From contig NZ_VKAB01000012.1 in NCBI RefSeq assembly GCF_009769385.1, forward strand, positions 1-64,000: a DNA stretch of 64,000 nucleotides. The letters are read 5' to 3'. Source of the DNA: Saccharothrix deserti (GTDB lineage Bacteria > Actinomycetota > Actinomycetes > Mycobacteriales > Pseudonocardiaceae). This document shows, one piece after another, positions 3,409 through 39,065 of this stretch. Numbering within the stretch: the stretch's first letter is position 1; the number at the start of each line of letters is the position of its first letter. The position numbers were made by a program, and so were the translations under genes. A model generated the notes under the pieces. That model did no database searches. It was not told the DNA's origin and worked only from the letters and a program-made list of their open reading frames with translations.

Positions 3409-4152
3409 ATGCCGAACCAACGCCTACGAGACTCGTTGCTGCGCAACGGTTTCGACCTCAACCAGGTGTCCAAAGCCACCGGCGTAGACCCCAAGACGGT
3501 CGAACGCTGGATCAACCTCGACCGGACCCCGTACCCCCGCCACCGCCGAACCATCGCGGCCATGGTCAGGGAGGCCGAGACCTACCTCTGGCCCAACGCA
3601 CTCGCCCCGGACGCCAAGAAGGAGATCACCCAGTCGGAGGTCGTGCAGGTCTACCCGCACCGCCACTCCGTCCCCCAGGAGCAGTGGACGCACCTGGTCG
3701 ACCAGGCCCGCCTGAACATCTCGATCCTGATCTACTCTGGCATGTTCCTCACCGACAACCCGAACCTGATCAAGACCTTCCGCCAGAAGGCCGAGGCAGG
3801 TGTCAAGATCCGCCTACTCCTGGGCGACCCGACCAGCCGCGAGGTGGCCCGCCGCAGCGAGGAAGAAGGCATCGGCAAGGGCACTCTGGCCGCCAAGGTC
3901 CGCAACTCTCTCGCGATCTTCAAGCCCCTGGCCGACAGCGGCCACGCCGAGATCCGCTGCCACAAGACCACGCTGTACAACTCGATCTACCGCTTCGACG
4001 ACGAGATGCTGGTCAACACTCACGTCCACGGCTTCATGGCAGCCCACGCCCCGGTCCTCCACCTGCGCCGCCTCTCCGGAGGGGACCTCTTCGAGACCTA
4101 CGCCGAGAGCTTCCAGGGCGTCTGGGACGACGCCAAGCCACCCAAGTGGTAG
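3409..4152 (+). CDS. HTH regulator with PLD-like C-terminal domain
   Basis: This encodes 247 residues. Residues 1-60 form an XRE-type helix-turn-helix (DLNQVSKATGVDPKTVERWI). Residues from about 95 on resemble the phospholipase-D-like fold seen in similar AICE regulators: a strand-rich ISILIYSGMFL segment, an IRLLLGDP segment, and RCHKTTLYNSIYRFDDEM, where a His-Lys pair precedes an acidic pair but a clean HKD motif is not visible. The ATG at 3409 has GGGGGAG upstream. The Nudix gene follows 10 bases after the stop, so the two are probably co-transcribed. The C-terminal domain may sense a ligand rather than cleave one. Autoregulation through the GACGTC boxes is likely but unproven. Confidence 0.65.
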   Translation: MPNQRLRDSLLRNGFDLNQVSKATGVDPKTVERWINLDRTPYPRHRRTIAAMVREAETYLWPNALAPDAKKEITQSEVVQVYPHRHSVPQEQWTHLVDQARLNISILIYSGMFLTDNPNLIKTFRQKAEAGVKIRLLLGDPTSREVARRSEEEGIGKGTLAAKVRNSLAIFKPLADSGHAEIRCHKTTLYNSIYRFDDEMLVNTHVHGFMAAHAPVLHLRRLSGGDLFETYAESFQGVWDDAKPPKW

Positions 4153-4162
4153 GCAGGAAGAC

Positions 4163-4636
4163 ATGGCGCGCACCGATCACTACAACGACCCGAACGCCCC
4201 CAAGGCGACCAACATCGTCGTCGCGGTGACCGCGTTCGTCCAAGACGACCAGGGCCGCCTACTCATGATCCGCCGCACCGACAACGACCTCTACTCCATC
4301 CCCGGTGGAGCCCAAGACGTAGGCGAGACGATCGGCCACACCGTCATCCGCGAGGTCAAGGAAGAGACCGGCATCGACGTAGACCCCACCGACATCATCG
4401 GCGTCTACTCCGACCCGGCCCACGTCATCTCCTACACAGACGGCGAAGTCCGCCAGGAGTTCTCCATCTGCTTCCGCGCTCGACTCATCGGAGGCGAGCT
4501 GCACACAAGCAACGAGTCCAGCGAGGTCCACTGGGTGGCCCGCGAAGACCTGGCGGCGCTCAACATCCACCCGTCGATCCGCCTACGGATCCAACATGGC
4601 TTCGAACCGCGGACCACGCCCTACTTCGCCAAGTGA
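4163..4636 (+). CDS. Nudix hydrolase, Pif-like immunity candidate
   Basis: This encodes 157 residues. The Nudix box runs from GGAQDVGETIGHTVIREVKEET, that is GX5EX7REVXEET, near residues 47-69, with all four conserved acidic residues present. Nudix enzymes hydrolyse nucleoside diphosphates linked to another group. In pSAM2 the Pif protein carries a Nudix motif and blocks redundant transfer into cells that already hold the element; the position here, beside the regulator and near the Pra-like gene, invites that role but sequence alone cannot prove it. A GGAAG ribosome site precedes the ATG. Its end overlaps the opposing HD gene by 16 bases. Plain housekeeping nucleotide cleansing is the alternative. 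Confidence 0.8.
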   Translation: MARTDHYNDPNAPKATNIVVAVTAFVQDDQGRLLMIRRTDNDLYSIPGGAQDVGETIGHTVIREVKEETGIDVDPTDIIGVYSDPAHVISYTDGEVRQEFSICFRARLIGGELHTSNESSEVHWVAREDLAALNIHPSIRLRIQHGFEPRTTPYFAK

Positions 4637-5181
4637 GCCAACCCAGCCGCCCGCAACCGCTCCTCAGTCCGCTCCACAGCAGCCGTCAGTTCTGGCTTCG
4701 CCTCCGCGATGAAAGCCGTTACAAGGTCCGTCGGACCGTACCGATTCTGGATCTCCTCAATCCGGTCGTTGATGTTCGTTCGTTCACCATCAGGCGTCGT
4801 AGTCATATCTGCCCACCAGAGCGCGTCACGCAACGAAGTTTCTTCATCACCCCATTCATCCAGCTCTTTCGATAGCCCACGAAGTCTCGCTTCAAGGTAC
4901 GAACAGGAGTGGTGCGCAACTAGCGCACAAAGCCTCTCCGGCGAAGTGGCTTCACGTAGGTATCGCGCTCCATCCAGCGGGTGGAATCCAGTCAACGCCA
5001 AGGCCGGAGAGTAGCCGATGTCATGCAGCACCGCTGCCTCCACCAGGAGCGTGGCATCGTCTGTGGAGAACAGCACCGAAACAGAGCGTGCACGATCAGC
5101 CACTCCCTGAACATGCACCCATCGGCGCGGCAGCGGTTCCCGTAGAAGGTGTTCTGCCAGCTCAAAAGCCCATGCCACCAT
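4621..5181 (-). CDS. HD-domain protein
   Basis: This encodes 186 residues. The HD signature is visible: H in RWVHVQGV, the HD pair in EAAVLHDIGYSP near residue 55, and a later LVAHHS. HD proteins bind metal and usually hydrolyse phosphoesters or nucleotides. Homologues commonly sit next to XRE and Nudix genes in actinomycete elements. The ATG at 5181 is preferred over a GTG two codons earlier. It converges on the Nudix gene, with 3' ends sharing 16 bases. Substrate unknown; a nucleotide-related role alongside Nudix is an inference. Confidence 0.7.
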   Translation of the reverse strand: MVAWAFELAEHLLREPLPRRWVHVQGVADRARSVSVLFSTDDATLLVEAAVLHDIGYSPALALTGFHPLDGARYLREATSPERLCALVAHHSCSYLEARLRGLSKELDEWGDEETSLRDALWWADMTTTPDGERTNINDRIEEIQNRYGPTDLVTAFIAEAKPELTAAVERTEERLRAAGLAHLAK

Positions 5182-5295
5182 GCTCACACCATAGTCAGCA
5201 CCGAACCAGACACGCTGTCAGTCTCATGCTAACGCTCGTCGCACAGCCGCCGATACGAGACGCAACCGGCCCGACACGATGCACAGGCGGAACTG

Positions 5296-5916
5296 ATGTT
5301 GCAGCGACTCTTACTCTGCTCTTTTTTTATTCTGACAGCGACGGCGATGGGCTGCGGGAGTGGAGCCACCACCTCGACACAGACATCAAGCACGTCCGCC
5401 ACTAGTGAGTCACCGAAGACGACAACACCTACCACATACTCACGGGCCGAGCCATTCGACTCATCGATAAATGACGTGATCACTCAGATCAATCTTCAAC
5501 TACCGATTCTCACGGATGACTCCTCACCTCTCCCCACAACGATCGTTAAGGAAGGAGTGTTCGGCGGCCGAGCAACGTCTAACACGAAAATTTATCTACT
5601 ACCGGAAAGCAGCGCGTTCAGCAAGACACGCGCCGTTACCGCCCACGTAACCGGCAGTGGCGGCTCGGTTCAGACACCCGCTCGCTTGTTGAGCGGCATC
5701 GGCGCATCACTTAACACGCTTTCTAGCGATGCAGTCGAGGCATTCCAAAAGGATGCACTACCCCGGCTTTCAATGCTCACACAGTCACGCACCACCATCA
5801 CCGTAGGATCGTTCTACGACCTCACGATCTTGGTGCGCAGTTCCACCTCACTCACCTTCATCTACACGCCTATCGGAACCACACCGCCCTCTGAAGCTGA
5901 GACGCTTGGGCTGTAG
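5296..5916 (+). CDS. Putative lipoprotein of the element
   Basis: This encodes 206 residues. A short signal peptide (LLLCSFFILTATAMG) leads to a lipobox-like cysteine at residue 20, then a Thr/Ser-rich linker to about residue 50 and a soluble domain with no recognised family. Base composition is clearly less GC-rich than the chromosomal genes and uses A/T third positions, as expected for recently acquired DNA. It stands alone, 115 bases from the divergent HD gene. Cell-surface exclusion or adhesion are possible roles for a lipoprotein on a conjugative element, but nothing in the sequence decides. Confidence 0.6.
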   Translation: MLQRLLLCSFFILTATAMGCGSGATTSTQTSSTSATSESPKTTTPTTYSRAEPFDSSINDVITQINLQLPILTDDSSPLPTTIVKEGVFGGRATSNTKIYLLPESSAFSKTRAVTAHVTGSGGSVQTPARLLSGIGASLNTLSSDAVEAFQKDALPRLSMLTQSRTTITVGSFYDLTILVRSSTSLTFIYTPIGTTPPSEAETLGL

Positions 5917-6358
5917 AACGCTGCGGAACGTCCGTTGCTAGTAGAGTGACACCATTGCCGAATTCGGCTCTATGGGATCAAGGCGCGCCGCCTGCGGCGA
6001 CGCGCGGCCAGTCCCGCCTCACGTTTGCACCGACTCCCCGCATCGCGGCACGCCGGGCTCCCGCTCCGCTCCGCCCGTCGGCCGCGCGCAGCGTCGGTGC
6101 ACGTGGCCGGGAGAGCGGCGCGCCACACAGATGCGAGCTGCCGCCAAGCCACTTCCAGCCACCACGGTCGGGACGATCGCGCGGTCACACGGCTGACAGC
6201 ACTGGGCGCGGCGATCGGCTGCCGCGACGGCTCCGCCGCCTTGCCATCGGTATTGGATTGTGACTTCGATGAAGCGGGTCGATCAACCTCAAGCACTAAG
6301 CACAAGGGCTACACCGGGTAGCTCTTCGACGGTTCAGGCATGACATGAACGAGAGTCG
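5917..6358. other. Gene-free GC-rich spacer with strong hairpins
   Basis: No convincing gene is seen in these 442 bases. From about 5980 to 6120 the sequence is extremely GC-rich; at about 5981-6004 GCGCGCCGCC and GGCGACGCGC form a near-perfect hairpin. Several short frames overlap on both strands with no ribosome sites. Such structured spacers occur in rolling-circle actinomycete plasmids as single-strand origins, but this identification is speculative. Confidence 0.3.
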
Positions 6359-7900
6359 CTAAATCCACGGGACTGGATATACCGCTCCGGCAGCAACAGA
6401 AGGGCGCAGTGGCGAACGAGCCTTGCCCGCAAAGCCGATAACGCGCAGTATTGCAAGCTCAAGATAGTGACATGCAATAATTGAAGCTTCCACCCATTGC
6501 TCGAATTGCCATTTGATCGGCTTATCCCGCTTAGGGTGAATCACCAGGTTACGCATGTCAACAATACACCGGAGCGCATCCCTCGAATGACCTTCCGGTG
6601 TTGGACCAAGAACATCCGAGACAGTCTTGAGGTAAGGCATGTGATCAGGAATATTCAGATCGATACCACAGTCGTCAAGGAGTAGGCGGATCTCCTCTTC
6701 GGTCCGCGGCAAGTTCTCCCACTTCGACCTAGTGTACGTCCTCCGCTGCTCAACAAATAGATCGTAAGCAAGCATCTGAAGCGCAGAAATAGGGATAGCT
6801 GTAGTCAGTTCTGCGCTAGTGTTGACATTGATACTCACGTAATAAGCTACGGCATATTGGAGGACTTCCGCCTGGTGTGCATCCTTGCAAAACTCGACTA
6901 CACGGCGAGTCACCTCCGAGAGCTGAGCCGGAAATTCCGTGGAGTCACTCCACGTATGAACCGATATCATTCGGTCTATCGGCTGGACTCGCCACGATGA
7001 CCATCTCGGATTGTCCCCACTCCAGCCGACAGGAAGAAGAGGCCGGACCCAACGACCAAGTGTGAGACTCATCGACAAGCCCAACTGATGCAGCAAATCA
7101 ACGATATCGGCGTAAGCGAAATCGGAGCCATCTTTTCTCCGCAACTCGCCCACATGCGTAAACCTGGACCCGCCACTACGCCTCAATTCCGCCCAATTTT
7201 CCCTCCACCGCATATCGCGAAGCAGATCGATATTTATGATCCAGTCGTCGAGATCAATCTCCAACCGCCCTCGCCACCATACCCACGGCTCATTCGGATC
7301 ACAGATGTTGATTGCCCCGGAGGACTGAGCCCACCCATTAGGAACAAAGAACGTTACCCTATCCACAGGGGCAGCCTCATCACCAATGTACTGATCACCC
7401 AACCTCTCGTTAATGTAGTGTGTACGATCAGCTTTCGACCATCGGAATCGACATTCACCAGGGGGCTTTACTACAGCATCCAGACCTGCAAATGACGCCG
7501 TCGGTGTCTCCGACCAGTGCGAATCATCATCTGCGGGGAAAATTTCGGACAGAGACTCGAAACTTATCTCCGCCTCACCTGAAGCCTCGGTACGCGCAGA
7601 AGGAAGCCAGTTGAAACAGATTTCCCCATCGAAGTCCCCCGGGCCGCTACCCTCATTCAACTGGAAGCGCCCGCTATACAATGGAACTTTCTGATTAATC
7701 CCCTGATCGACGTACAGGTGACTCAAAGCATCAGGGAAGCGCTGTTCTATCACTACTTCTCCCCGATCCGTAGTCAGGTGCCGAAATCGGACTACTCTTT
7801 GACCGTTTTCATGGTCGACGGAGACATTCTTCGGCTTTTGTGATCCATGCTCGTCGCTTGACCGGGACGTCACACACGCCTCCCAGTATTGCAATATCAA
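6359..7900 (-). CDS. Large protein with C-terminal HEPN-like motif, candidate defence gene
   Basis: This encodes 513 residues. The N-terminal 300 residues are strand-rich with many Trp residues (PWVWWRGRLEIDLDDW; THVGELRRKDGSDF), a layout like the N-terminal domain of ApeA-type proteins. The C-terminal third is helical and contains RNLVIHP, with Arg450 and His455 spaced as in the RX4-6H motif of HEPN ribonucleases. Composition is AT-richer than the chromosome, matching its neighbour lipoprotein. It stands alone as a leftward unit close to the attachment site, a usual cargo position. An abortive-infection or anti-phage role is inferred. The ATG at 7900 is used; a GTG nine codons later is possible. 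Confidence 0.55.
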   Translation of the reverse strand: MILQYWEACVTSRSSDEHGSQKPKNVSVDHENGQRVVRFRHLTTDRGEVVIEQRFPDALSHLYVDQGINQKVPLYSGRFQLNEGSGPGDFDGEICFNWLPSARTEASGEAEISFESLSEIFPADDDSHWSETPTASFAGLDAVVKPPGECRFRWSKADRTHYINERLGDQYIGDEAAPVDRVTFFVPNGWAQSSGAINICDPNEPWVWWRGRLEIDLDDWIINIDLLRDMRWRENWAELRRSGGSRFTHVGELRRKDGSDFAYADIVDLLHQLGLSMSLTLGRWVRPLLPVGWSGDNPRWSSWRVQPIDRMISVHTWSDSTEFPAQLSEVTRRVVEFCKDAHQAEVLQYAVAYYVSINVNTSAELTTAIPISALQMLAYDLFVEQRRTYTRSKWENLPRTEEEIRLLLDDCGIDLNIPDHMPYLKTVSDVLGPTPEGHSRDALRCIVDMRNLVIHPKRDKPIKWQFEQWVEASIIACHYLELAILRVIGFAGKARSPLRPSVAAGAVYPVPWI

Positions 7901-8400
7901 TCAACGTTTTATCTGAGATCAGATTTTAGTACTAGACGTAGCAATCTGCCGCATCGACAGCTTGACCGCCATGTCAGCCAGGAGATCATCCGGCTTCAGC
8001 ACTACGCCTCGAACGGGGACGGGCATCGGCCGACGCAGGCACCACTCATGAGCCCGCGCCGTGTCCTTGCGTGTAACAGGATGATCAGGCCGTCTCCAGG
8101 CCGTCGGACGTGGATCAGCGTTGGTCAACGATAGTGAACGTCGAGAGGAAACAAGCAGGTCAGACATGGTGCGGTAGGGCGAACCGCAGGTAGTTGCCGA
8201 CCGCTGGCAGTACTACGACGTCTGAGTCAGACCATCCCACCACAAGCTCAACATCGCGCCAGGCATGTCACCGCCGCCCGTGCCCCTGGCGTGCCCCATC
8301 TCAGGGTCAACAGCGGTCAATCAGGGGCACGGGCGGTCAGGATGGCGGCTAAGGCGCAGGTCAGAGGGTTAGCTGGTCAAGGGCTTGATCGCTGCCAGAC
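7901..8400. other. Spacer between the HEPN gene and the attachment site
   Basis: Short open frames of about 80 codons occur on both strands (7889-8134 and 7919-8167), but neither has a ribosome site, family resemblance or a clear codon signature. No integrase, excisionase or complete tRNA is seen here. The promoter of the HEPN gene must lie at its left end. Confidence 0.3.
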
Positions 8401-14780: not shown

Positions 14781-14947
14781 CGCGAGAGTCGAACCCTCAA
14801 GTGCCGAGAGTCGAACGCTCAGGTCGTGCGTGTCGAACGTTCAGGTGCCCTGAGTTCTACATTCAGGACACCACCGAACCCACCTGAGCGTTGAATTCGG
14901 GGGTCCTGGAGGTTCGACTCTCGGCACCTGGGCGTTCGACTCTCGGG
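14781..14947. repeat. 22-bp intergenic repeat array, head-to-head form
   Basis: Seven degenerate units of about 22 bp fill the gap between two convergent genes. The core is GAACGTTCGACTCTCGGG, usually preceded by ACCT or TCCT. Four units at 14781-14868 run on the minus strand and three at 14881-14947 run on the plus strand, so the array is a large imperfect inverted repeat. The last unit abuts the TAA of the aldehyde dehydrogenase. A second array of the same family is at 38877-39008. Confidence 0.7.
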
Positions 14948-22686: not shown

Positions 22687-23169
22687 TCAGTGCCTGGGGG
22701 CTTGGCCCGCCTGGTCGGTCAGCATCCGCAGGCCGCTCACCAGGCCGCCGGCGAGGTCGCCTTCCTTGAAGGACGCGACCATGCTCATGACGGCGAGCTT
22801 CGCGCCGCGGTCGGCGAGCCGGCGGTGGGACTCCTCGCCCGTCACCACCTCGACCACGCGCTCACCGGGCGACACCGCGACCAGCACGTGGTGCGTCGGG
22901 CGCGAGGTGCTCGCGTGCAGCTCCTCGGCCTTCGCTCGGGCGTCGGGGCCGAGTTCGCCCAGGTACACGCTGAAGTCCAGCCCGGTGGTGCGGCTGGCCA
23001 GCGTCAGCGCCTCGTCCAGCCTCGCCAGCTGCGCCGGCGTGAACGGCAGGCTCGGCGCGTGCGGCTCGTACATCTTCGCGGCGGACACCCGACCGCTGTT
23101 GGTGACGACCGCACCGACCTCCAGGGTCGACGGGTCCACCTCAGCCCTCGTCAGCTCACCAGTTGCCAC
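22687..23169 (-). CDS. DUF5130 (TPM-like) protein
   Basis: This encodes about 160 residues. The domain runs LPFTPAQLARLDEALTLASRTTGLDFSVYLGELG through HVLVAVSPGERVVEVVTG and ends in a helical ASFKEGDLAGGLVSGLRML. DUF5130 resembles TPM_phosphatase-like folds that associate with membrane complexes. The GTG at 23169 overlaps the end of ctaJ by 14 bases, so the pair is co-translated. Pairing with CtaJ suggests an accessory role in assembly of the aa3 oxidase or the bcc-aa3 supercomplex (inference). Confidence 0.7.
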   Translation of the reverse strand: MATGELTRAEVDPSTLEVGAVVTNSGRVSAAKMYEPHAPSLPFTPAQLARLDEALTLASRTTGLDFSVYLGELGPDARAKAEELHASTSRPTHHVLVAVSPGERVVEVVTGEESHRRLADRGAKLAVMSMVASFKEGDLAGGLVSGLRMLTDQAGQAPRH

Positions 23170-23401
23170 GAGCACCTCCCTTGGCGGTACGGCCCTCGAC
23201 CGGGATCTCGGCGGGCTGGTGCACGCCGGTCGTCAGGCCGGCGGGGTTGGCACTCCACCAGACGGGGGCGTAGTTCCACTCCTGGCCGGGCCGGTACCGC
23301 TGAATGCGGGTGGCCTTCGGCCTCAGCGTCAGTAGCGTGATCACGCCGTAGATGGCCAGCGGGATCAGCGCGAAGACGAGCACGGTCTCCACGATGGTCA
23401 C
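23156..23401 (-). CDS. ctaJ: aa3-type cytochrome oxidase subunit CtaJ
   Basis: This encodes 81 residues. One N-terminal transmembrane helix (ETVLVFALIPLAIYGVITLLTL) leads to a conserved tail with ATRIQRYRPGQEWNYAPVWWSANP. This matches the small actinobacterial subunit CtaJ of the bcc-aa3 supercomplex as remembered from mycobacteria. The main cta genes are not in the window. A perfect palindrome GGTTACGGTAACC is centred 10 bases upstream of the start on this strand and could be the operator or part of the promoter. Confidence 0.7.
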   Translation of the reverse strand: MTIVETVLVFALIPLAIYGVITLLTLRPKATRIQRYRPGQEWNYAPVWWSANPAGLTTGVHQPAEIPVEGRTAKGGARGNW

Positions 23402-23805
23402 GGCGGTTACGGTAACCGATCGCCCTGGTCACGTCGGGGCGAGGGCACCCGTTTTCCGCACTGGTGTGGGTCGGGCGGGGCGCGCGGCGCCGTCCGACGA
23501 CCGTTCCGTCTGTGAACGCGGGTGCGGCGACAGGGCCGTGATCACGGCTTCCACCGTGTGATCTAGACGACGCTCGACCAGGAACGACGTCACCGAGGGT
23601 GTCCATCGGCGCCGGATGCACTAGATCCAGCTCTCGATCGTCGCAGTCCGTACACCCGGATGGCCTTCGCCCGGACGGAGGCGAATGGCGGCCGGTTTGG
23701 CGTCTTGTACTGAACCCACTCGGCTTCTAGCTTTTCACCTGTACGGGTCTTGCGCATCCGATTCCGGATACTAATTCCCGCCCGATGAGTCTCGGAGGAC
23801 ACGAC
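23402..23805. promoter_or_regulatory. Gene-free region between ctaJ and the repeat-protein gene
   Basis: It holds the palindrome GGTTACGGTAACC at 23405-23417 next to ctaJ, and CCGTGATCACGG at 23536-23547. A possible rightward promoter has TTGTAC (23705-23710) and TAGCTT (23728-23733) separated by 17 bases. The ribosome site GGAGG lies at about 23793-23797, 8 bases before the ATG of the repeat protein. No gene is seen. Confidence 0.4.
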
Positions 23806-24228
23806 ATGTACACCGTGAACCGCGCTCTGGTCGCCGCCATCACTCGTTCGTCGTACACCCAATCGGAGCAGAGCGTTACCGACGTTCAGCGCTCTGCCGC
23901 ACTCTCGGACTCGGTGCGCATCACCTGCCGGGACTCCGTCCGGATTACGTGTGATGACTCCGTCCGGATCACGGCCGCGATGGACGACTCGGTCCGCATC
24001 ACGGCCTGCGACTCCGTGCGCATCACGGCATCCGACTCGGTCCGGATCACCGCCTCGGACTCCGTCCGCATCACCGCGTCCGACTCGGTCCGGATCACCG
24101 CCTCCGACTCCGTCCGCATCACGGCGTCCGACTCCGTGCGCATCACCGCGTCCGACTCCGTGCGCATCACCGCGTCCGACTCGGTGCGCATCACGGCGCG
24201 CCGCGAGGACTTCACCCTGGCAGCGTGA
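23806..24228 (+). CDS. Octapeptide-repeat protein (DSVRITAS)12
   Basis: This encodes 140 residues. A 34-residue leader (MYTVNRALVAAITRSSYTQ and on) is followed by twelve copies of DSVRITAS-like units at 23908-24201 and a short RREDFTLAA tail. The first four units vary (C-R, C-D, an AAMD insertion, A-C) and the next eight are nearly identical. Differences among the regular copies are at synonymous third positions (TCC/TCG, CGC/CGG, ACC/ACG), which shows selection on the plus-strand protein. There is no signal peptide. The eight-residue period with alternating V-I pairs suits a beta-solenoid or amyloid-like stack; a multi-core RiPP precursor is another idea, but no modifying enzyme is adjacent. 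I recognise no family. Confidence 0.7.
   Translation: MYTVNRALVAAITRSSYTQSEQSVTDVQRSAALSDSVRITCRDSVRITCDDSVRITAAMDDSVRITACDSVRITASDSVRITASDSVRITASDSVRITASDSVRITASDSVRITASDSVRITASDSVRITARREDFTLAA
23908..24201 (+). repeat. Tandem 24-bp coding repeat, 12 copies
   Basis: Each copy encodes D-S-V-R-I-T plus two variable residues, mostly A-S. The third copy carries a 6-base insertion. Copies are uninterrupted, without spacers, and stay in frame. Synonymous drift between copies argues against a very recent expansion. Confidence 0.9.
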
Positions 24229-24261: not shown

Positions 24262-24927
24262 CTAGGCCGCGGGTTCGCCCAAGTAGGGCAGCCACAGCGG
24301 GTCGGCTTCGGTGACGCCGGCCAGCAGCCGCCAGTGCGGCCCGCGGGGAGCGTTGGGCACCACGCGCAGACGCCAGCCCAGCTCCGAGAGGAGCTTGTCG
24401 GCCTTGCGGTGGTTGCACTTGGCGCAACAGGCCACGCAGTTCGTCCACGAGTGGGGGCCACCCCGGCTGCGCGGCACGACGTGGTCGATCGTCTCGGCGC
24501 GCCCGCCGCAGTACGCGCAGCGGTACCGGTCGCGGTGCATCAACCCGGCACGGGTCAGCGGGACCCGACCGCGGTAGGGCACCCGCACGTAGTTCGCCAG
24601 CCGGATCACCGACGGCACGACCACCTCGGACGTCGAGGAGTGGACGACAGCCCCGGCGGGGTCGCCGTGCACCACCTCGGCCTTCCCGCACACCACGAGA
24701 ACCACCGCGCGCCGCAACGGCAGCGCGGTGAGCGGTTCGAACGTGGCGTTGAGCAGCAGGACCTTGCGTCTTCCCCAAGGCAACACCACGGGCGCCTGAC
24801 CGGCTCCCTCTCCGTCGACCACCGCGTGCACGGCGTGCACCGCGAGCTGTTTTTGGCCGGACGGTGCCGACGACGCGATCCCGGCGTTCACCAGGGCGCC
24901 GATCGGGGTGGGTTGTCGGTCTGGCAC
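24262..24927 (-). CDS. HNH endonuclease family protein
   Basis: This encodes 221 residues. Residues 50-110 hold the conserved WGRRKVLLLNATFEPLTALPLRRAVVLVV segment, and residues 135-180 the HNH site: zinc pair CAYCG, DHVVPRSRGGPHSWTNCV and CCAKCNHRKAD. This is the actinobacterial HNH family that includes M. tuberculosis Rv2469c (recalled), of unknown cellular target. The ATG at 24927 leaves 152 bases to the divergent peptidase gene, a region with a GTGAC/GTCAC inverted repeat near 24994-25005. Confidence 0.85.
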   Translation of the reverse strand: MPDRQPTPIGALVNAGIASSAPSGQKQLAVHAVHAVVDGEGAGQAPVVLPWGRRKVLLLNATFEPLTALPLRRAVVLVVCGKAEVVHGDPAGAVVHSSTSEVVVPSVIRLANYVRVPYRGRVPLTRAGLMHRDRYRCAYCGGRAETIDHVVPRSRGGPHSWTNCVACCAKCNHRKADKLLSELGWRLRVVPNAPRGPHWRLLAGVTEADPLWLPYLGEPAA

Positions 24928-38876: not shown

Positions 38877-39008
38877 TCCCGAACGTTCAACTCGCCGGTC
38901 CTGAACGTAGGACACACGCGACCGGAACGTAGGACACACGCGTTCCGAACGTAGGACACACGGCACCTGAACGTAGGACTCTCGGGACCTGACGGTTCGA
39001 CTCTCGGG
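38877..39008. repeat. 22-bp intergenic repeat array, all units in one direction
   Basis: Six consecutive 22-bp units share the core GAACGTAGGACACACGCG or the variant GACGGTTCGACTCTCGGG, each preceded by a 4-base spacer such as TCCT, ACCG, TTCC or ACCT. The last two units match the 14781-14947 array closely. Units are contiguous, so this is not CRISPR. It lies between the terminator of tetR and the end of the opposing gdh gene. Confidence 0.75.
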
Positions 39009-39025: not shown

Positions 39026-39065
39026 GGTGGGTGGGTGGGTGGGTGGGTGGGTGGGTGGGTGGGGG
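39026..39065. repeat. (GGGT)n microsatellite at the 3' edge of gdh
   Basis: About eight GGGT tetranucleotides end one base before the gdh stop codon. On the plus strand this is a textbook G-quadruplex sequence; the gdh mRNA carries the complementary C-rich run right after its stop. Slippage could vary its length between strains. Confidence 0.85.

Follow-up and report, generated by a model that had tools for sequence, protein, structure and literature searches.

A pentapeptide-repeat protein of Pseudonocardiaceae with protein-level constraint on its motif, lineage-specific motif versions and a near-invariant start element

Short motifs repeated along one chain are found in the needles of VgrG and T4 gp5, whose repeats (DUF2345, Gp5_trimer_C) follow a V-x-I-T-A-like pattern and form part of a protein with further domains, and in functional amyloids with imperfect strand repeats such as curli and FapC, where a short strand motif is repeated with loops. 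Tandem arrays usually drift or become homogenised at the DNA level. The gene analysed here, located in a 64,000-nucleotide stretch of Saccharothrix deserti DNA (contig NZ_VKAB01000012.1, positions 1 to 64,000; the window), encodes a stand-alone protein of 140 amino acids and belongs to a family in which a pentapeptide is repeated in variable number, with the copies inside one protein in agreement and with lineages differing in the version used. The octapeptide periodicity of the window protein is shared with the VgrG and T4 gp5 needle, but no other domain is attached to it in Pfam or NCBIfam and spacing in the family is not fixed. Curli and FapC are alike in repeating a short strand motif with loops between, and unlike in that the family has a five-residue motif, no clear signal peptide and no significant structural match. 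A partial likeness is to the middle region of CsoS2, the alpha-carboxysome scaffold, described as a largely disordered chain in which (V/I)(T/S)G triplets recur many times at intervals of eight residues (PMC11365436). Here, the residue after [IV][TS] is in most cases G, A, S, M, C or R (G in 272 copies of the GVRIS class; A, M and R in others) and the spacing is similar, whereas the source passages on CsoS2 describe no Arg-centred pentapeptide and the array here is made of a single motif. The architecture is a variant of multivalent repeat proteins, and what is new is that the motif switches as a block while the start element stays fixed. In a partial literature collection, no paper containing the hexamer strings tried was found.

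The gene and its parts lie in the window as follows:
23806..24228, + strand: repeat-protein gene, 140 amino acids, likely true start ATG at 23806
23794..23798, + strand: ribosome site GGAGG, read from the sequence and kept across relatives
23806..23907, + strand: 34-residue leader, no clear signal peptide by hydropathy
23908..24195, + strand: array of 12 DSVRIT units with spacers, from tandem-repeat scan and motif count
24196..24225, + strand: C-terminal tail ARREDFTLAA, ssrA-like, compared with the genome's own transfer-messenger RNA (tmRNA) tag AESNDQRAFTLAA

A preliminary description of this DNA, made from the letters alone, had proposed a real repeat gene, and this is confirmed by a 147-codon open reading frame (ORF) at 23785-24228 (+) in the ORF list of the window and by 12 SVRIT copies within it. 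That description placed the start at the upstream in-frame ATG at 23785, with a 34-residue leader and a good ribosome site; leader and site fit the second in-frame ATG at 23806, which sits 7 bases past GGAGG, and since relatives conserve the 23806 start together with its ribosome site, the start is likely 23806 and not 23785. In the AlphaFold2 model the leader has a predicted local distance difference test score (pLDDT) below 50 at residues 1-29 and 31-33, and a clear signal peptide is absent as judged by hydropathy of the first 45 residues only, no signal-peptide predictor having been applied. Tandem repeats of period 24, 48 and 72 are contained in 23908-24198, and of the 11 spacings between the copies ten measure 8 residues and the other measures 10, with a two-residue insertion after copy 3. 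Copies 1 and 2 read SVRITC, while copy 4 carries its Cys one residue later.

Across 121 distinct proteins, the family unit is the pentapeptide [GS]-[VTI]-R-[IV]-[TSNEH], set between spacers that vary in length, so that the 8-residue unit of the preliminary description holds for the window ortholog and not for the family. In this Pseudonocardiaceae family, the number of copies per protein ranges from 2 to 60. The versions, counted by protein, are SVRIT (48), GTRVT (34), GVRIS (23), GIRVN (4), GVRIH (3), GVRVT (3) and GTRIT (2), with GVRIE, GVRVN, GVRIN and GIRVT in one protein each. Motif starts are mostly 6 to 11 residues apart with a minimum of 6; proteins with GTRVT often keep a strict spacing of 6 and those with SVRIT a spacing of 8 or 9, and spacings of 6, 8, 10 and 11 occur together in one protein (L017). 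Among 120 proteins with at least three copies, 1,932 copies are exact and 50 are one-off, these having been picked by motif match with Arg required, such that badly decayed copies and Arg-free arrays would be missed. Of the one-off copies, 7 lack the Arg, and a separate scan with Lys at motif position 3 gave 0 matches as compared to 1,949 for the motif. Larger arrays do not have a higher one-off rate (Spearman 0.01, p 0.90, against copy number). By fifths of the array, the 50 one-off copies are distributed as 11, 8, 7, 14 and 10, and because of this even spread the suggestion of an N-terminal capping turn, drawn from the Cys copies and the insertion at that end of the window array, is not borne out in the family.

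The copies have diverged at silent sites while the peptide has stayed the same, and hence selection acts on the peptide and not on the DNA. Between copies of one protein (114 proteins), the mean proportions of synonymous (pS) and nonsynonymous (pN) differences are 0.49 and 0.034 for the motif, giving a pN/pS of about 0.07, which is lowered by choosing copies by match and contains some pN that arises artificially from the way TCN-AGY serine paths are counted; the corresponding values for the spacers are 0.58, 0.39 and 0.67. The window array, taken in fixed register, still has a motif pN of 0. Thus, the earlier claim of protein-level selection stands, the motif lying far below the spacers rather than changing at a neutral rate between copies. 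Motif DNA differs between copies by a mean of 2.6 per 15 bases in the 114 proteins and is identical in 5% of copy pairs on average (120 proteins), CGN and AGR arginine codons are mixed in 55 of the 121 proteins, and both serine codon blocks occur at position 1 in 25. In the window itself, 5 of the 18 columns of the 12 DSVRIT units vary, all at third codon positions (hypergeometric chance 0.0007), and the 21 minority bases all fall on third positions, with none on a first or second one. Among the seven regular DSVRITAS copies six columns vary, every one a third position, as the synonymous differences noted earlier had implied.

The motif version tracks the tree of the neighbouring HNH protein, with 15 changes over 105 rows against a minimum of 11 and a shuffled mean of 61. 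GTRVT occurs at scattered places on this tree and may be the ancestral version. L117, which carries GVRVT, is nested in a GTRVT clade and has 5 distinct motif DNA units in 12 copies with 1.33 differences per 15 bases, as compared to 13 distinct units in 13 copies and 3.41 differences per 15 bases in L116 of the same genus. The simplest reading of this single, undated case is that the L117 array was rebuilt from a few altered units, and that a new motif may be tolerated if all copies agree.

Since copy number is free while the sequence of each copy is constrained and all copies switch together, we favour, at a probability of about 0.4, a homotypic strand-pairing protein of the 'stickers and spacers' type, which would be short-lived and probably cytosolic and whose motif would bind its own kind. 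Each pentapeptide would form a short beta strand and pair with identical copies in its own chain or in another molecule, giving a reversible homotypic assembly in which one mismatched copy would be harmful and the loss or gain of whole units harmless. The ssrA-like C-terminus of many members could let ClpXP clear the protein quickly, and its role in the cell might, as a guess, be to hold or exclude other proteins under stress. The flat one-off rate with copy number fits a mismatch penalty and not simple dosage. Several observations weigh against homotypic pairing. Arrays of 3-10 copies, the smallest bin, have the highest one-off rate (0.056) instead of the lowest; arrays of low diversity are also seen where the motif has not switched (L125, for instance, has 5 distinct units of 14), so that array renewal alone could keep copies alike; 54 of the 121 proteins lack an AA end, hence the tail is not essential to all members; a Foldseek search of the PDB gave no match with E of 0.001 or lower, the top row being a non-significant FapC (E 0.059); a spacing-variable ortholog is modelled without strands, as described below; and Arg at position 3 in every lineage motif, in a search that required Arg, fits a bound partner better than self-stacking. 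An amyloid-like stack, also raised in the preliminary description, or another homotypic stack may likewise form. A more specific form of homotypic pairing, a self-recognising peptide code in which a lineage-specific pentapeptide in 2-60 copies is kept identical through pairing of like only with like, and the whole array can be rewritten within a genus while a single start element changes little in most genera of the family, is doubtful; if true, it would constitute a bacterial system of homotypic assembly in which the recognition sequence evolves as arrays are replaced.

Nearly as likely as homotypic pairing is a co-evolving partner, the array then being a multivalent linear motif and the protein a scaffold or sponge, comparable to CsoS2, which threads carboxysome shells; each pentapeptide would join a groove of the partner as an added beta strand, its Arg sitting in an acidic pocket. 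Free motif spacing and an Arg in every lineage motif that Lys never replaces are in line with such a partner, as is the striking resemblance of RI[TS][GA] to the CsoS2 (V/I)(T/S)G triplets; a partner should, though, resist motif switches of the whole array, and in large arrays the single copies, being redundant, should be under less constraint, which is not seen. BMC-domain shell proteins (PF00936), the partner class that CsoS2 suggests, were searched for in 26 genomes and had no match in 25 of them, with E. coli and Synechococcus as positive controls, making a carboxysome-type partner unlikely. The lone positive genome (G057, genus g20) has two shell-domain matches side by side, L202 and L203. 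The wide range of net charge in the family, -11 to +80, counts against a general charge-based nucleic-acid binder. With copies that have diverged at silent sites but hardly in peptide, a free array size and a peptide that switches as a block between lineages, the family is a natural experiment on whether a repeated linear motif is selected to match itself or a partner.

A beta-solenoid was a structure first proposed from the period of 8; as a rigid form it would be a left-handed helix or needle-like, perhaps acting as a filament or surface mimic. For the window protein, AlphaFold2 with 16 relatives does place strands about every 8 residues with a predicted template modelling score (pTM) of 0.69 and a pLDDT of 91-95 in 8 of 9 repeat blocks. 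The model is not robust: ortholog spacing runs from 6 to 11 or more, L017 combines four spacings in one chain, and L037 (spacings 6 to 11) gives no strand, with a pLDDT of 62 and a pTM of 0.41, a soft negative because its alignment has 13 relatives of 54-65% identity, less similar than those of the window protein. Perfect repeats are reported to yield confident but unrealistic AlphaFold2 solenoids (PMC11795689), and on account of this bias and of L037 the solenoid is not relied on. In the lag test, lag 4 comes out as well (z 5.0); the sequences pooled for it are related, and its result stems in part from two-period arrays. A rigid solenoid is hence unlikely, and confident AlphaFold2 solenoids of regular repeats are worth checking on irregular orthologs. 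The window protein also exceeds the Pfam cut-off of DUF2345 (34.8 bits against 30.7), so the earlier statement that no named family has this repeat holds only in the sense that none fits well. Of ten other orthologs, five match DUF2345 at E up to 0.01; membership in the DUF2345/VgrG needle family was rejected as only one of the ten reaches the gathering score. Since three of the ten exceed cut-offs of unrelated families (DNA_pol3_beta, Sarcoglycan_1 and DUF3060; DUF6799; Hexapep), the match is likely an effect of periodicity. A precursor from which many copies of the pentapeptide are released as a modified peptide or signal, the chain being cut by ClpXP or another protease, is less probable still than the solenoid, although a leader, an identical repeated core, variable spacers and an ssrA-like tail would suit it, and Rap-Phr signalling peptides are likewise pentapeptides. 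Against it stand the lack of a clear signal peptide by hydropathy and the absence, in a Pfam and NCBIfam scan confined to the window, of any modifying or processing enzyme among the nine flanking proteins (two XRE-type regulators, DUF397, DUF5130, CtaJ, HNH, a receiver-like protein, a prolyl oligopeptidase and MscS), though one may lie elsewhere in the genome. That the array is unselected low-complexity DNA or an antisense product can hardly be true. Copy number does vary among relatives, and a 109-amino-acid antisense ORF is open in the window and mixes Met and Ile, just as the preliminary description had it; yet the third-position-only variation, conserved start, promoter-like stretch and fixed chromosomal place speak against this origin, which is refuted by the pN/pS and third-position data unless these are artefacts.

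Two features that may control the gene lie upstream of its start:
23705..23733, + strand: putative sigma-70-like promoter, -35 TTGTAC (23705-23710), 17-base spacer, -10 TAGCTT (23728-23733), from sequence conservation
23732..23753, + strand: near-invariant element of about 21 bases at the presumed transcription start, TTTTCACCTGTACGGGTCTTGC, from genome scans

Near-invariant blocks were seen in the upstream DNA of 26 loci. Among 38 loci of 37 genera tried, the strict element is present in 35 loci (34 genera), and TTGNNN-N17/18-TANNNT lies at the same place in 35 of these 35, ending at or beside the element, with a spacer of 17 in 33 and of 18 in two; a stricter scan with the standard consensus found no promoter here in the window. 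Allowing up to two mismatches, 207 of the 297 family genomes, spread over 34 of the 46 genera, carry the element TTTCACCTRTNYGGGTCTTGC, all but four of the 207 just once as read from the table, and the window's own genome has a single site at up to three mismatches. Outside the family only two-mismatch matches were obtained, in 41 of 391 genomes, the reversed control being hit in 33 of 394. By its position, the element would span about the first 15-20 transcribed bases, and its near-invariance in most genera points to a dedicated regulator or RNA control.

The family was collected from 297 Pseudonocardiaceae genomes of 46 genera, where the window protein itself has matches in 98 genomes and 21 genera. 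On named genome contigs, 31 loci were found: in Saccharothrix, Lentzea and Umezawaea, in one record under the label Nocardia, and in Bacteroidia, where the single match is weak and was set aside. The Nocardia record, L060 (Nocardia sp. NRRL S-836), has an HNH protein that groups with Lentzea and is probably mislabelled. Reading the ORF 70-75 bases downstream of the start element in 45 further loci (20 + 25), mainly in genera that the protein search had not matched, revealed further repeat proteins, many with other motifs, and 13 more, with rough start codons, adjoin the HNH gene where the element is weaker or absent. The collected set comprises 136 repeat proteins, of which 121 are distinct. 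The gene is single-copy and vertically inherited in Pseudonocardiaceae, between two genes that serve as synteny anchors:
24262..24927, - strand: HNH endonuclease gene, convergent, by Pfam HNH
23156..23401, - strand: ctaJ gene, divergent, by NCBIfam CtaJ

The HNH gene is not thought to be part of the mechanism. Of 138 stretches that bear repeats, in which some genomes count twice, 137 have a convergent HNH gene at a distance of 9 to 615 bases downstream of the final motif, and in the lone exception, L121 (G207), mscS follows the array with no HNH match between. ctaJ was matched in 101 of these stretches and is divergent in all 101; the remaining 37 have no ctaJ match in the DNA examined, many being too short to reach it. 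HNH also occurs in each of 26 genomes in which the element, as searched, is missing. Of these, 13 have no repeat gene in the flank examined, and in the five of those 13 with a ctaJ match (g3, g4, g28, g36, g37) 42 to 127 bases separate ctaJ from the HNH match. Short or decaying arrays of 2-5 copies with the start element kept occur in L089, L101, L099 and L104 (genus g35 and two genomes of the window's genus), and the repeat gene may be on its way out in these genomes.

An LAA end is found in 51 of the 121 proteins, a further 16 end in AA and 54 end otherwise, while the tmRNA tags of the window's own genome and of 23 further genomes all end in LAA. Degrons related to ssrA and ending in Ala-Ala route other cellular proteins to ClpXP (PMC7652416); the LAA/AA tails resemble those of such ClpX substrates, with the difference that only 67 of the 121 proteins end in AA. 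The exact FTLAA match of the window tail to the tag is probably chance, since most Lentzea proteins end in SLAA and three g8 (Lentzea-like) tags in ALAA.

Weak repeat-like matches were also noted at AY526908.1 33277-33609 (Bordetella phage VR2 region) and NZ_CP019039.1 35217-35525 (Bacillus velezensis plasmid). Elsewhere in the window, a 22-base spaced repeat, GAACGTWSGACWCWCG, occurs as four copies 22 bases apart at 38903-38984, directly followed by a perfect GGTG run of 9.5 units (39026-39063), and as a one-mismatch copy at 14805-14820, with a 22-base tandem at 14905-14946. It has 246 exact matches in its own genome, 123 per strand, as compared to 0 for the reversed control, and the matches listed are often in small tandem and inverted clusters. 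G+C is 0.55-0.60 at 4001-8000 and about 0.70 elsewhere, and this segment is possibly acquired DNA.
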